Below, one piece after another: positions 6,034 through 62,522 of a stretch of DNA of 64,000 nucleotides. The stretch lies in contig NC_135170.1 of assembly GCF_041146795.1 (NCBI RefSeq), positions 25,042,033 through 25,106,032 of the forward strand, given 5' to 3'. The stretch is from Maylandia zebra. Taxonomy: Eukaryota > Chordata > Actinopteri > Cichliformes > Cichlidae. A model generated the notes under the pieces. The model saw nothing but the letters and a program-made list of their open reading frames with translations, was not told the origin of the DNA and ran no database searches. Every line of letters starts with the position of its first letter. Positions within the stretch are counted from its first letter, which is position 1. A program made the position numbers and the translations under genes.

Positions 6034-7079
6034 ATCTAATGAAAGTTGCACTTCACCAGTACTTACACATTGCATATTTTTTTTACAGTCAGCATCTCTT
6101 TTAGACTCTAATAAGTGTGTGTATGTGTGTGTGTGTAGGGGGTGGGGGTGGGGGAGCCAGTTGTTGATGCTGAAGTGGCAAATTTTCCTGTATGTGTTCC
6201 TGACATGCACACAAATCTGCATTCGTAGAACAGACAACTGAAAAGCTCCTTCTCTGCAGAAAGAACTGTGACCAACTAACATCTCCCATCACAGGGTAGA
6301 TTTTCTAAAGTCTTAAAACAAAATAAGTAGGAAGTGCGTTTCCTCTCAGACCACTTTAGTTACATTATGCTGAAAGGTTATAATGGAAATTTTTTTTTGC
6401 CCCAAAACCACAAAAACTGCCTTCCTACCCCCGGCTTTAAGCGAAGGATCTGAATTTCTTCCACCGCTACACAGCCCACGCTGCCGTCCAATAGGCCTAG
6501 CTCTTTCAGGACAATTATGATCACATAACAAGCTTGTGAATTTACAAAGGGAAGGAGACTGAGAAGGGGAAATGTAGAAGAGGAGAACAGTTAGTCTATT
6601 GTGTTTATCCACATGCACAGTTATATACAGTATTAGCACATGGTTTGCCTGGAGAAAGAGCCATCAAGCTGTAGAACAAAACAATCAGTCAAGTGTTGGG
6701 ATAAACTAAGTATGACAGCTCCTAATGGAAACTCTTGTCGACTTGTTCTTTTTCTTCGTTGCCATCGGAACAAAAGCTGGAATTTCAGAAAGAGAGGAGT
6801 TCAGACAGCGGCGTGGTCAACTATGAAGGTGCTACTCGTTCATTTGCTGATTCATCATAACCGGTGTGATGACAAGACTCAATAGCTAAGGGTCAGGAAA
6901 TACAGAGTCTAAGAACCTGAAGGCTGAAGTGGAAAATAAAGACAGTATCCTTTTTCCTCAAGGCTATACCCCTATGATGTATTTATATGGGCAGCAATTC
7001 GAGGCTATTCCACCAGCTATAGCTTGCAAAGCTTTTTTTAGTGCGCTCATGAGTTCATTTTTAAAGATAATTATGAGGC
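6034..7079. other. Intergenic, no gene seen
   Basis: Contains a short imperfect GT/GGGTG stretch near 6,115-6,155 and chance ORFs only. Confidence 0.45.
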
Positions 7080-7840
7080 AGGGAAAAGGGTAACACCACC
7101 TGGGTCTGGGTGCAATTCCCCCCTCCAGGGGCAAGGGTACCTAGACCCGGTTCGTAGAGTACGCTTGGGGAGTGTGATCATGTGTACAGCGTCTCTTTAT
7201 GTCTGTCTCCACGTTGGTTGAGTGTGGAGTAAGTGCATATGAGAGCATGAGGGTGGGAATGGATGTTTGAGTCTGTGTGTGCCTGTATGTCTGTGTCTAT
7301 ATGTCAGGTTGGGTATCAGACACCACCTCTCTGGGGACATCTCAGGCCCTCCAAGGTTTGGAGGCCTATCTCCACCCACCACCACTTCCCCTGCCAGTGG
7401 CGGACTCCCTCAGGTATCGGTGCGTTGGTGGTTCTTTGTGTCTGGGGATGGGCGTCCGGGTACACACCGGCTCACTCCTTGGCGGCTGCTTATCGGGGCC
7501 TGGAGCCTGGGGCTCGCTCGGGCCGCTTCAGAGGTGGGGTGCCCTCGGCCTCTCGGCCTGGGGCTCGGTCACTCAGGCACAGCTAGCTGCCGGCGGAACT
7601 CACGGGCGCGTCACTGCAACTCCCCCTGGCTTCTGCTCGGTGGCTGCTGAGTGAGCCCTCATCTGGGACTCTCCTCAGCTCTTACTGGGACAGTGGCGCG
7701 GCTGCCCCTCTGTTGGTCTTCCTTGGTCTCTTGTGTTCTGGGGGCCTCTGGATGTCTGGAGTTTTGATCTCCTCCATACCTGCTTCATACCCTGGAGGAC
7801 GGGGCTGTGGCTCCCCACACTCCTTAGCAGATCGTAACAT

Positions 7841-8174
7841 GGGTGGCTGTAGCTCAGGTGGCAGAGCAGGTCAGCCACTAATCAGAAGGTCGGTGGTTCG
7901 ATCCCAGGCTGCCTCCTGGCTGCATGTCAAATATCCTTGGGCAAGATACTAACCCCATGTTTGCCTACTGGTGGTGGTCAGAGGGCCCGGTGGCGCCTGT
8001 GTCCGGCAGCCTCGCCTCTGTCAGTGCGCCCCAGGGCAGCTGTGGCTACAATGTAGCTTGCCATCGCCAGTGTGTGAATGTGTGTGTGAATGGGTGAATG
8101 ACTGAATGTAGTGTAAAGCGCTTTGGGGTCCTATGGACTAGAAAAGTGCTATACAAATGCAGGCCATTTACCAT
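7841..8174 (+). mobile_element. tRNA-derived SINE, plus strand
   Basis: Head GGGTGGCTGTAGCTCAGGTG carries an A-box, and GGTCGGTGGTTCGATCCC about 35 bp later is a good B-box. The body follows (CCTTGGGCAAGATACTAACC, then CCCCAGGGCAGCTGTGGCTAC), and the 3' end has GTGTAAAGCGCTTTGGGGTC and AAAGTGCTATACAAATGCAG. This is the best-preserved member of the SINE family in the window. Confidence 0.8.
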
Positions 8175-8730
8175 GGAGAAACCTTTGGAATACAAGCATG
8201 CTGATCCACACAGGTGTACACACGGGTATTCACAGACGCGGACTACAGCTTTCTTGGCTGCTGCCTCAAAGCACATTGTGCGCTGTCTATCTTGCGTGCG
8301 GCACAATATCGTTTAGTATTTAGTTTCTACTGATATCTACTGCTAGCTAGTTTATTGTGATGGTGCTGTTTTTATTATGTTGCTCTTTGTTGTTTGCTTT
8401 CTCTCCTGTTTTTTTCTCCATACAGATGACCCAGGTGTTTTGTTTGTTTTGTTTTTTTTCTTTCTTCCCCCCCTTCTCACCGTCTCTTCTCCCCTTTGGT
8501 TTTCTTTCTCTCCCTCTCTTTCTTTCATTCTTTCTCCCTGTCCTATCCCCCAGTCATGTCTGTCCCGTTTGTAGCAACTGAAAATAAAATAAATACATAA
8601 TTATAATAAAGGTCAATCAAATGGACCAATATGGCAAGGCCATGATGATCCACTTGGTGAAATAAATCCGCTTGGCATCTTTCTTGGCCTTAAGACAACA
8701 ATTCTGATGGCTAAAGATCCAAACGGGAAA

Positions 8731-31817: not shown

Positions 31818-56993
<25,176 letters not shown>

Positions 56994-58147: not shown

Positions 58148-59040
58148 TTATTTCAGCAGGGTCTTCATAACTCTTATGGAAGAACCTTTGTAACCACCAC
58201 CAAAGTGGTTCCAGTGATTCAGGTAGTGGAAGAGTTGGTAAAGCTGGTTCCTCTTTGCAAATCCTGGTGCTTGGGGAATCTTGCTGTGGTATGCAGAGTA
58301 AAAAGCACTGTTGAAGCCACCAAACATCCCAGCAATACCCAACTCAAACTCAGAGTGGCCGTAGAAGGAAGCAGGATCGAAGATGACTGGGCCGTCTGCA
58401 CATTCTGCCACGTTTCCTCCCCATAAATCTCCATGTAGGAGAGCAGGGACTATCTCCACATCTTTGAAGAACTGAGGGATCTTCAGCTGGAAATAAGAGA
58501 CACAACATGCACATTACAATGCTGATACAATCATAATGTCTTGTGCAAAATATGTTTAATTTCAAACAGGATCAAAGGGAGGTTGCACCTGTAACTCAGC
58601 CCATAGTTCTCTGGTCTCCCTGTCTCCATACGATTTCTCCACCATGTTAAGCTGGTGCTGTAGCCTCTGCTGGGTGTAGAATGGAACCCAATCACTCTGC
58701 CATTGATTGTCCTGGAGAGGTAAGAATGAGAAAAAACTGTGATGCTGCTGAAATTCACTTTAACATCTTGAAGATTTGGAGACCAAACATTTGTAACACA
58801 ACTTAGAGACATCAATACTGTACACCCTCCACTAGAATGCAGACACAGTATATAGACACATATACATTGGCTTTACCTGTGGCAGATATCCACAGCATGT
58901 AGTTACATGGAAGCCAAATTTTTCAACAGCAGCCACATCTGACTGCCCCGCTCCTTTTCCTGCATATATAGCCGTAATATTAATAAACAGTAATCACAAA
59001 CTTTTTACCTTAAATTTGACACAGTTCATTATTATTCATT

Positions 59041-59119
<79 letters not shown>

Positions 59120-59918
59120 TATCCACATTGTGGCATCCTAAGATGAAGTTAAACTGAATTACCCACTGTCTGTTGCTCTTTATTTAATTTTTCCAGTTGT
59201 TTCTTGTTGTGAAGATGCAGATCTGCCATCTTCTCTCCTAGCTGTTTTGAGTACCTGCTCATTGTGTTTAAAAATCAAGTATGTCATTGAAAAAATATTT
59301 TGCTCAGTGTTTCTAAAACTAAATTCATCTGCCCAAATTCTGCTTTAATCTGCACTAAAGAAAAAAATGTAGTCAAGAGCTCTCTTACTTGCTAAGACTG
59401 TTCATGTCCAGATGTTCCATCACAAATACAGAGCCTCCTGTGTCAAGCTCAATCACCTTTATGGGCTTGGGGACTTTCACGGTTTCTGTCTTTACAATAG
59501 CCTCCAGACTGGCCATTTCTCCATCAAACATCAGTTTGGCCTGGATAATTTAAAGACAGGACAACACGGTCTGGTAAACACAAGCTTCAGTAAATGTGAA
59601 TTTTTGCATTGTTCTCCACTCCACAACATCTACACAAAGTCCACGGACAGTAGTGTGGTGCAGCTGCTGGATCATGTCCCATTCATTTAAGTCCCGAGTT
59701 GAGCACACGCCGAAAGCCGATCATGAACTGAATGACACAACAGATAAAGAAAATGAAAAACTAACAATAACAAATACCTCACTCTTGTGATTTATCTTTA
59801 CAAACACTTTCCCAGTGTCAGTATGATAACTCTGTCCCTCGCTGATGCATCCACCTCCAGCATGACCAGCTGATTTCAGCATGGTTGTCCCCAACTCCCT
59901 CTTTAACTTAGCTTCCAT
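58148..59918 (-). CDS. fn3krp: Ketosamine-3-kinase (fructosamine-3-kinase-related protein), complete
   Basis: Phosphorylates the third sugar carbon of ketosamines on glycated proteins, destabilising the adduct and so repairing the protein; cytosolic, aminoglycoside-phosphotransferase-like fold. Six exons: 59778-59918, 59389-59540, 59163-59254, 58877-58959, 58589-58711 and 58148-58486. They give 309 residues, the length I recall for human FN3K and FN3KRP. Key residues are present: redox Cys24 in the GGGCISEG loop, Lys41 in VFVKIN, catalytic Asp217 in HGDLWGGN and metal-binding Asp234 in [13 protein letters not shown]. Much of the N-terminal half and the C-terminal NHWNHFG..Y.GSS region fit FN3KRP better, while some middle segments (Q-M-A-D-L-H-L, R-E-L-W) look FN3K-like, so paralogue assignment is less sure than family. 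A GT microsatellite sits in intron 3. Confidence 0.95.
59042..59117. repeat. (TG)38 microsatellite in fn3krp intron 3
   Basis: About 76 bp of uninterrupted dinucleotide repeat, 45 bp from the exon 3 donor site. Confidence 0.97.
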
Positions 59919-60237
59919 GATTATTTATCATCAGTTCCAGGACAGTTACAGCAGGACTAAAACCACCTACGCATCGCAAATGCGGGTATGAAAGTCTTTC
60001 TGACAGTTTCCGTTGCGGCAGCCAACCAGGACTTTGTCCCGAAGCAGGATCTTGTTTTTCTTCCGTTATGTAAATAATGATTGAGTAGTAGCCAATCATA
60101 AACAAGTCTGGGTTGATTGATTTCTACTTTGTCCAATAGTTGCGACGTTTGTCCGGTCACGTGAACGTCGCCATGGTGCCAAGTGAGGCTACAGCTATAC
60201 GCTACGAGTTTAACTATGGTTCTGCGGAAAAACCGGC
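59919..60237. promoter_or_regulatory. Bidirectional promoter between fn3krp and arl16
   Basis: The two start codons are 319 bp apart and point away from each other. The interval has two CCAAT boxes on the plus strand (60,092-60,096 and 60,133-60,137), a palindromic E-box CACGTG (60,158-60,163, context GGTCACGTGAAC) and several CpGs. There is no obvious TATA box. This is the usual make-up of a head-to-head housekeeping promoter. Confidence 0.7.
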
Positions 60238-60241
60238 ATGA
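60173..60241 (+). other. Upstream ORF overlapping the arl16 start codon
   Basis: ATG at 60,173 in an optimal context (GTCGCCATGG) opens a 22-codon frame that ends TGA at 60,239-60,241. That stop overlaps the arl16 ATG (60,238-60,240) as ATGA. If the mRNA begins upstream of it, ribosomes would have to leak past or reinitiate at the overlapping start. The transcription start is not known, so the uORF may lie outside the mRNA. Confidence 0.55.
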
Positions 60242-62522
60242 CCAGCAAAGAAATGTGTTTACTCCTCGGAGCGACCGGTGTTGGAAAGACGTTGTTGCTC
60301 AAACGTCTACAAAATATCCTTTGTGGCCATGTGAATTTCTTTGACGTAAAAGGAAATACTACCAAATAGCTTAATTAGCTAACTAATTTAGCCTATGAGC
60401 TTGTGTAGTACTTAAGTTGCTAAGTAATGGACGACCAGGGTTTGTATATCGCCTTTCCCAATTGCCAAATGTCGATACCCAGTGTTATTTTATTTTGCAT
60501 CGGTATGTGTACAAATTCATTTTCATAATAAGATCTGTAAGAGAGATTATTATTACAATATTTAAGCTTTGGTAGCCCTTATTAGTCCAATAGTTTGGAA
60601 ATTCACATTACAGCAGAAATTAGTGCTGTACTGTAATGTGAAATTGTCAATGGTCAGAAAGTGGATAATAACAGTAATAATTATAATTATATAAAACAAT
60701 AGGAAACATGTACAAGATAGACGAAGTATAATTTAAATGTGTGTACATATATGTCGCAGTGATAAAATAAAATAACATCTTTAGATGCCTAGAAGCAAAA
60801 AAACAGAGCCCCAGATGATGCTAATAGAAGATGGAGTGTTGAAAACAGTTGCACACTGTGATTTATCAGTCCCCAATGTGTGCATGTGTAAGTATACATG
60901 TGTTTTACTGCTGCGGCTCTGCTGGATGAAAAGACCTCCAATATTGCTCCTTTACACACCGTGGGTCCAGCAGCCTGACGCTGAAGAAGCTGCTCAGTGC
61001 TGTAAGAGTGTCCTGCATGGGGTGGGATGTGTTTAGCTACCATGCTACCTGTCACTTACTACCTCCAAGATGTCAAGAGGGCATCACGTTGGCACTCTTG
61101 GTCTACCTGTTTCAATTCTTTTTGACCCCAGTAGAGATACTGCTGCCCCAACAGACCAGCACCATTACAGATAGCTGTTGGAACCACAGTCTTCAGGAGC
61201 TTCTCCTGCACTTCAAAAGTCCTTGGCATACTTACCAGATACAGCCTGCTCTGTCCTTTTTGGTAAATAGCATTTTTTTTGATATAGTCCACATTCTCCA
61301 TTTCGTAAGTGGAGAAGGATATTTGTGCCTGTGGACGTTCACCACCAGCCCTTTGGTTTTTCCAGTATTTATCTGGAGGCAGTTCTCGTTCACATAGCTA
61401 TTTCAGAGATTGAAAGGGAAGTGATCTGCAACAGCACAAGTTAAACACTATCCTCCAGTTGCCTAGATTACATGCATGGGGCCCATCGCATATAAACTTA
61501 GCCCAAATTGGTGGATTATTAATAAACTGTCATCTGAACAGATGACGTGATTTCATTTGTGAGGTGACAAGTCAACAGTAGTCTCTCAGCTGTGACATCA
61601 CCAACCTTACTCATAACAAATATTCAAGTTCTACTTTCATAGCTCATAAAATATTGCGTAAACATTTCAAAATGTTTTTCTTTAAAGCTGATAGCAATGC
61701 TGTCTCCAGTCGATTTTCCTATCAGATTTCATTTACAGTTTATCGTACATGGTTTAGATGAATTGGGGACACCACCTTCAACTCTTCCCACAGTAAGTAC
61801 TAATGGACAGTTCAAAGTCTCTGACACCTTATCCGTGTAAGTTCTCCATCTCCAGTCTTCATTCTTTGTAGGTAGGAACCAATCTGACAGATCTAACCGT
61901 GAAGAAGAAGAAGGTGACTGTGAGAGAGCTGGGAGGCTGCATGGGCCCTATATGGCCCAGTTACTTCAAAGACTGCTCCTCTGTCATTGTATGATCTTTG
62001 TATACATGCTGTTTATATTTGTAATATTCAATATGGGTTTACTAAATTGAAGTACTTGAGTAGATTTCTTTTGTTTCTCCATAGTTCATGGTGGATTCGG
62101 CCAACATTGCTCAGATATCCTCCTCCTGTATCCAGTTGCTGTCAGTACTGTCAGCTGAGCCTCTGAGCAAGGCCTCTGTGCTTATTCTCTTCAACAAGAG
62201 GTGACACTCGTAGAATACACATCAGTCTCTATTAGTGTTTTACCATATTGTACAGGATCTCTAGCAGGTTTAATGCAATTTGTATGTAATAAGGAAAGCT
62301 AATAATACCACTAGGAAATTTTTGATTTTCTTTTCCAATTTTATATTTTCCCCCAGGGACATGCCTTGCACTATGAGCCTTATAGAGATAAAGTCACTGT
62401 TCAGGATGGATGACATTGTTGCATCTGCGACTCAGCCAATCACAACACTGGAAGTCAGTGCCAGATCTGGAGAGGGACTTAAAGAGGTGATGAGCTGGCT
62501 GGAGTCCGTCACAGTCAAGTGA
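60238..62522 (+). CDS. arl16: ADP-ribosylation factor-like 16 (atypical ARF-family GTPase), complete
   Basis: ARL16 is a divergent ARF-like GTPase; in mammals it has been linked to cilia and to RIG-I. Five exons: 60238-60313, 61737-61792, 61872-61988, 62085-62200 and 62357-62522, giving 176 residues. The P-loop GATGVGKT is at residues 11-18, the switch-I threonine in PTVGTN at 47, and NKRD (the NKxD motif) at 120-123. The switch-II WDxxGQ motif is replaced by R-E-L-G-G-C, as in human ARL16, so hydrolysis is probably atypical. There is no N-terminal glycine for myristoylation. This ATG is the first in frame after an upstream TAA. Intron 1 is AT-AC; the others are GT-AG. Intron 1 contains LINE remains, and the 3' UTR is transposon-derived. 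Confidence 0.95.
60314..61736 (+). other. arl16: arl16 intron 1, U12-type AT-AC intron
   Basis: The intron starts ATATCCTTTG, a perfect U12 5' splice consensus, and ends ATTTAC, with a pyrimidine-rich TTTTCCTATCAG about 10-20 bp before as the likely branch region. Cutting A|ATATCC...TTTAC|AG gives an intact Lys codon and continues into the family sequence. Ending the intron at the following AG instead would break the frame. Confidence 0.85.
60880..61435 (-). pseudogene. LINE reverse-transcriptase C-terminal remnant (L2/Rex1-like) in arl16 intron 1
   Basis: Minus-strand translation gives, from about 61,430 downward, an N-T-G-K-T-K-G-L-V-V-N-V block, then K-K-G-Q-S-R-L-Y-L (near 61,245-61,270), an E-K-L-L-K-T-V-V-P-T-A-I block, and a later H-S-Y-S-T-E-Q-L-L-Q-R-Q segment. 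These correspond to the thumb and C-terminal part of L2/CR1-type reverse transcriptases. Frames are broken, and it lies antisense to arl16. Confidence 0.65.

Follow-up and report, generated by a model that had tools for sequence, protein, structure and literature searches.

A likely U12-type AT-AC first intron in the arl16 gene of Maylandia zebra

A window of 64,000 nucleotides of Maylandia zebra DNA (NCBI RefSeq assembly GCF_041146795.1, contig NC_135170.1, positions 25,042,033 to 25,106,032 of the forward strand) was analysed, with positions numbered from its first letter. A complete arl16-like gene lies on the + strand; its five coding exons encode 176 amino acids when exons 1 and 2 are joined at 60313/61737. 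Introns 2, 3 and 4 are of the GT-AG type and keep the remaining frame open to the stop codon. The features of the gene, including the alternative splice and branch sites weighed below, are as follows:

60238-60313, + strand: arl16 coding exon 1, MTSKEMCLLLGATGVGKTLLLKRLQ plus the first base of a Lys codon; Arf domain (PF00025)
60268-60291, + strand: P-loop GATGVGKT, inside exon 1
60314-61736, + strand: predicted intron 1, AT-AC, 1423 nt, phase 1, from the donor and an in-frame AC
60314-60322, + strand: putative U12-type 5' splice site ATATCCTTT, exact consensus
60331-60336, + strand: best rival major-class donor, CAT/GTGAAT, in frame with AG 61642, 61687 and 61738
61713-61721, + strand: candidate branch region, AUUUUCCU followed by A 61721; putative pairing with U12 snRNA, poor match to the TTCCTTRAY matrix
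61728-61736, + strand: rival branch site TTCATTTAC (7 of 9 positions), 13 nt before AC 61748
61735-61736, + strand: preferred 3' splice site AC (TTTAC/AG), in-frame join
61747-61748, + strand: alternative in-frame 3' splice site AC (CGTAC/AT), product 4 residues shorter
61737-61792, + strand: arl16 coding exon 2, whose join to exon 1 gives an open frame
61872-61988, + strand: arl16 coding exon 3, open frame
62085-62200, + strand: arl16 coding exon 4, open frame
62357-62522, + strand: arl16 coding exon 5, with the stop codon at 62520-62522

A profile search matched the 176-residue product to the Arf domain (PF00025) at 95.8 bits with the P-loop GATGVGKT intact, compared with 85.2 bits for a product that lacks exon 1. 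Among the best 60 of 113 matches to solved structures (obtained with a query that carried one wrong residue), the closest relatives were ARL1 and other Arfs, and no chain named ARL16 was present. ARL16 is a small GTPase switch protein related to cilia. The gene is probably ARL16, a name that draws on the MCLLLG start of exon 1 and on general features of the family. In PMC13216214 the forward primer listed for human ARL16 encodes the same MCLLLG start (translated by us), and this P-loop start, taken with the Arf domain, suggests that the human and M. zebra sequences probably represent the same gene. No relative of the protein emerged from a search of viral contigs, which yielded 13 pattern matches, and an Rfam search at the gathering threshold returned 0 matches.

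A fructosamine-kinase gene (PF03881; 58148-59924, - strand) lies head to head with arl16. Matches to PF03881 reached 141.1 bits at 58151-58513 and 26.0 bits at 59388-59549, with a further stretch at 59724-59924 scoring 17.2 bits, below the cut-off of 22.4. The likely start codon of this gene (59916-59918) is about 320 bases from that of arl16, a spacing which suggests that the two genes may share a promoter. Further upstream, an open frame at 48923-50224 (+ strand) carries a zf-C2H2_7 domain (PF15269, 127.7 bits) and is presumably ZNF750; in human, ZNF750, ARL16 and FN3K share a chromosome arm. An open frame of 112 amino acids was also seen on the - strand within intron 1 (61059-61397). It had no Pfam match at E 0.01 and resembles what we take to be the decayed tail of a LINE reverse transcriptase.

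The sequence-only reading had placed a U12-dependent AT-AC intron after exon 1, and its account of the two ends agrees with ours: the donor ATATCCTTT at 60314-60322 matches RTATCCTTT, the minor-spliceosome consensus, at 9/9 positions, and the intron ends in the AC at 61735-61736. The last bases of exon 1 are CTA CAA A and the first of exon 2 are AG TTT, such that the 60313/61737 join gives a Lys codon at the junction and an open frame. The accompanying claim that only AT-AC cutting restores this codon and the frame went too far, as 20 GT-AG pairs are also in frame (see below) and the AT donor at 60314 has seven in-frame acceptors, namely AC 61736, 61748, 61772 and 61775 and AG 61694, 61709 and 61757. 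The argument from uniqueness is wrong, and the reading is silent on the branch site, which is non-canonical; the U12-dependent intron is nonetheless the best reading, given the donor, its place, the in-frame AC and the report on human ARL16.

The RTATCCTTT motif alone is no evidence for such an intron, since the number of exact matches in the window was near chance (2 versus 1.36 expected; at least 2 in 40 of 100 shuffles). With one mismatch allowed, there were 48 matches versus 33.35 expected, a count reached in 2 of 100 shuffles. The weight of the donor comes instead from its placement just after the codons of the P-loop helix. For the exon edge, which we define as beginning where the LQ codons finish and closing with an in-frame stop at 60367-60369 (57 positions on the + strand, 60313-60369), the window-wide rate predicts only about 6e-4 exact donor matches. 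The second exact match in the window, GTATCCTTT at 6945-6953 (+ strand), is probably a chance match; no coding frame was recognised by eye beside it in 6601-8400, and no intron was assigned to it. A SINE-like stretch occurs at 7840-8170 (+ strand), presumably a tRNA-derived SINE of a type often seen in percomorph fish.

Human ARL16 has been listed as a minor-intron gene, and intron retention was reported for it in ZCRB1-heterozygous cells, in which the minor-spliceosome protein ZCRB1 is reduced (PMC13216214). Because of the placement of the donor at the exon edge, together with this report, intron 1, with 60314 as its donor, is very likely a U12-type AT-AC intron, and it probably ends at the AC at 61736; we regard the donor as firm and this acceptor as likely. 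The passages on ARL16 in PMC13216214 name it at the level of the gene, leaving unspecified which intron is minor or retained and whether it is AT-AC, and they concern a different vertebrate class. This was the one link between ARL16 and minor splicing found in a literature search conducted largely without full text. ARL16 occurs 0 times in the main text of a study of CENATAC and A-type minor introns (PMC8280824), and the passages on ARL16 in PMC9714508 and PMC8358228 are silent on the class of its introns, minor or major.

Intron 1 resembles the U12-type AT-AC introns described in vertebrates (PMC7367187, PMC2831892) in its ATATCCTTT donor, its AC end and its position as the sole such intron among the GT-AG introns of the gene, and differs from them in a branch site that departs from TTCCTTRAY. 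AT-AC ends are common to both spliceosomal types, being found also in U2-type introns such as SCN4A intron 21 (PMC2831892). The U2-type AT-AC introns of sodium channel genes have G at +5, whereas arl16 intron 1 has C at that position (ATATC), which is the U12 pattern. It has further been stated that a strong AT-AC 5' site alone suffices to class an intron as minor (PMC6717393), a criterion which, with ATATCCTTT as the donor, would favour the minor class. The description of AT-AC introns as a tiny minority applies in part: they are uncommon among all introns and a minority within the U12 class, but ordinary there, accounting in Danio rerio for 22% of U12 introns, in Tetraodon and Takifugu for 12% each and in human for 26% (PMC7367187, Table 2).

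The U12 reading is weakest at the branch site, which is not canonical. No canonical TTCCTTRAY site was found 8-22 nt from the AC at 61736; the best matrix match in this range, TTTCCTATC, has three mismatches and lacks the branch-point A, and its score under an approximate PWM was equalled by 31% of random 45-mers from the window (P 0.31). The candidate branch region AUUUUCCU (61713-61720) forms a putative eight-base pairing with U12 snRNA, whose pairing region we take to be AGGAAAAU, and is directly followed by A 61721, 15 nt from the 3' end. With two extra upstream pairs included, this duplex has an energy of -9.0 kcal/mol, compared with -14.9 kcal/mol for an invented perfect branch site. The duplex energy was reached by 2.3% of random 25-mers, and TTCATTTAC, with two mismatches and a PWM score of 5.2 bits, was equalled by 2.9% of random 45-mers (P 0.029); P values of 0.02-0.03 carry little weight here because several tests were made on one short stretch, with approximate matrices and U12 letters. 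Across the window, branch-site matches with at most one mismatch were not enriched (63 versus 71.66 expected).

The leading alternative retains the donor at 60314 and takes the AC at 61748 as sole or second acceptor, with TTCATTTAC as its branch site. We consider this unlikely and, as a sub-case of the U12 reading, its share of belief falls inside that already given to a U12-type intron. The join is in frame, and its product reads LQNGLDELG in place of LQKFIVHGLDELG. The core of TTCATTTAC is missing a central C and its putative duplex with U12 snRNA is weak (-5.2 kcal/mol, reached by 28% of random sequences), but its matrix score is better than that of any site available to AC 61736. Its distance of 13 nt falls within the published optimum of 11-13 nt from the intron end for a class of introns defined by donor and branch site (PMC3584512). 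The resulting product of 172 residues also has a higher Arf profile score (100.1 bits) than the 176-residue product (95.8 bits) or the 181-residue product of the GT-AG join discussed below (92.7 bits); the profile is, however, a poor judge among the three, since the score drops as the insert grows. A mammalian ARL16 segment is longer here and nearer to the 61736 product than to the 61748 product, which is part of the reason for preferring AC 61736.

A variant in which both acceptors serve, such that one U12 donor and two in-frame ACs, which are 12 nt from each other and have a partial branch site each, yield two ARL16 isoforms and the choice between AT-AC tandem acceptors tunes a ciliary GTPase, appears distinctly improbable. 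The predicted isoforms would differ in the loop between the P-loop and switch I, with KFIVHG from AC 61736 and NG from AC 61748.

Alternatively, ATATCCTTT may be coincidental and intron 1 a major-class GT-AG intron. All eight GT dinucleotides at 60260-60369 were tried with each AG lying between 60 nt downstream and 61789; an open full-length frame resulted from 20 pairs, nine of which retained the whole of exon 1 to 60313. Under an approximate PWM the donor at 60331 scored 4.6 bits, which exceeds the gene's own intron 3 donor (1.1 bits) and falls below those of introns 2 and 4 (6.4 and 6.2 bits), although it has no G at -1 or +5. Its pairing with AG 61642 had the top summed score (6.4) but brings in a long unmatched stretch. 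The most plausible major-class intron is the next in rank, 60331-61738 (6.1), which is in frame and full-length, uses the natural edge of exon 2 as its acceptor (TTTACAG) and replaces the K after LQ with NILCGH. Its product has a lower Arf score than that of the AT-AC join (92.7 versus 95.8 bits), and it requires the exon edge to have acquired a perfect U12 donor by chance (about 6e-4). It also sits ill with the report of the human ortholog as a minor-intron gene (PMC13216214). This reading is countered by improbability and not by frame, and we judge it highly improbable. A further reading leaves exon 1 unused and lets the gene begin at another site, such as the in-frame ATG 61697, which is present together with its open frame. 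This is extremely improbable, as the product loses the P-loop and falls to 85.2 bits while the exon 1 frame keeps GATGVGKT intact and starts with the MCLLLG that the primer for human ARL16 encodes (PMC13216214).

Returning to the U12-type AT-AC intron ending at 61736, the DNA directly shows its sequence elements, an open frame and a product with an Arf domain; we infer that the intron is spliced, that the minor spliceosome removes it and that 61736 is the acceptor used. In minor splicing, the U11/U12 di-snRNP binds donor and branch site jointly and U4atac/U6atac-U5 then performs the chemistry. For arl16, ATATCCTTT would be the target of U11 snRNP, and U12 snRNP would recognise a branch region some 15 nt from the 3' end, after which the U11/U12-U4atac/U6atac-U5 machinery would excise intron 1 and join CTACAAA to AGTTTATCG, linking the P-loop exon to the remainder of the GTPase. 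With intron 1 retained, conceptual translation runs from exon 1 into LQNILCGHVNFFDVKGNTTK and then a stop, so arl16 output would be predicted to depend on the minor spliceosome. AT-type minor introns have been found to depend on CENATAC, the depletion of which in HeLa cells affected 92% of A-type minor introns (PMC8280824).

Human ARL16 has already been described as a minor-intron gene, and the fish gene is a likely further example of a known phenomenon that changes no general idea. Should the minor intron of human ARL16 also prove to be intron 1, a cilium gene would have retained a minor intron from the common ancestor of fish and tetrapods onwards, which would fit published evidence that AT-AC U12 introns convert to U2-type less often than GT-AG U12 introns do (PMC2831892). 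The same source describes a switch from AT-AC to GT-AG in the Syntaxin-6 gene of fish.

Lastly, it is plausible that a gene builder restricted to GT-AG introns could overlook or misrender the exon encoding the nucleotide-binding P-loop, as the earlier reading had anticipated. The in-frame ATG at 61697 upstream of exon 2 opens a frame (61697-61792, + strand) leading to an ARL16-like product of 164 amino acids without a P-loop, which matches the Arf domain at 85.2 bits, and is likely a false start for automatic annotation.
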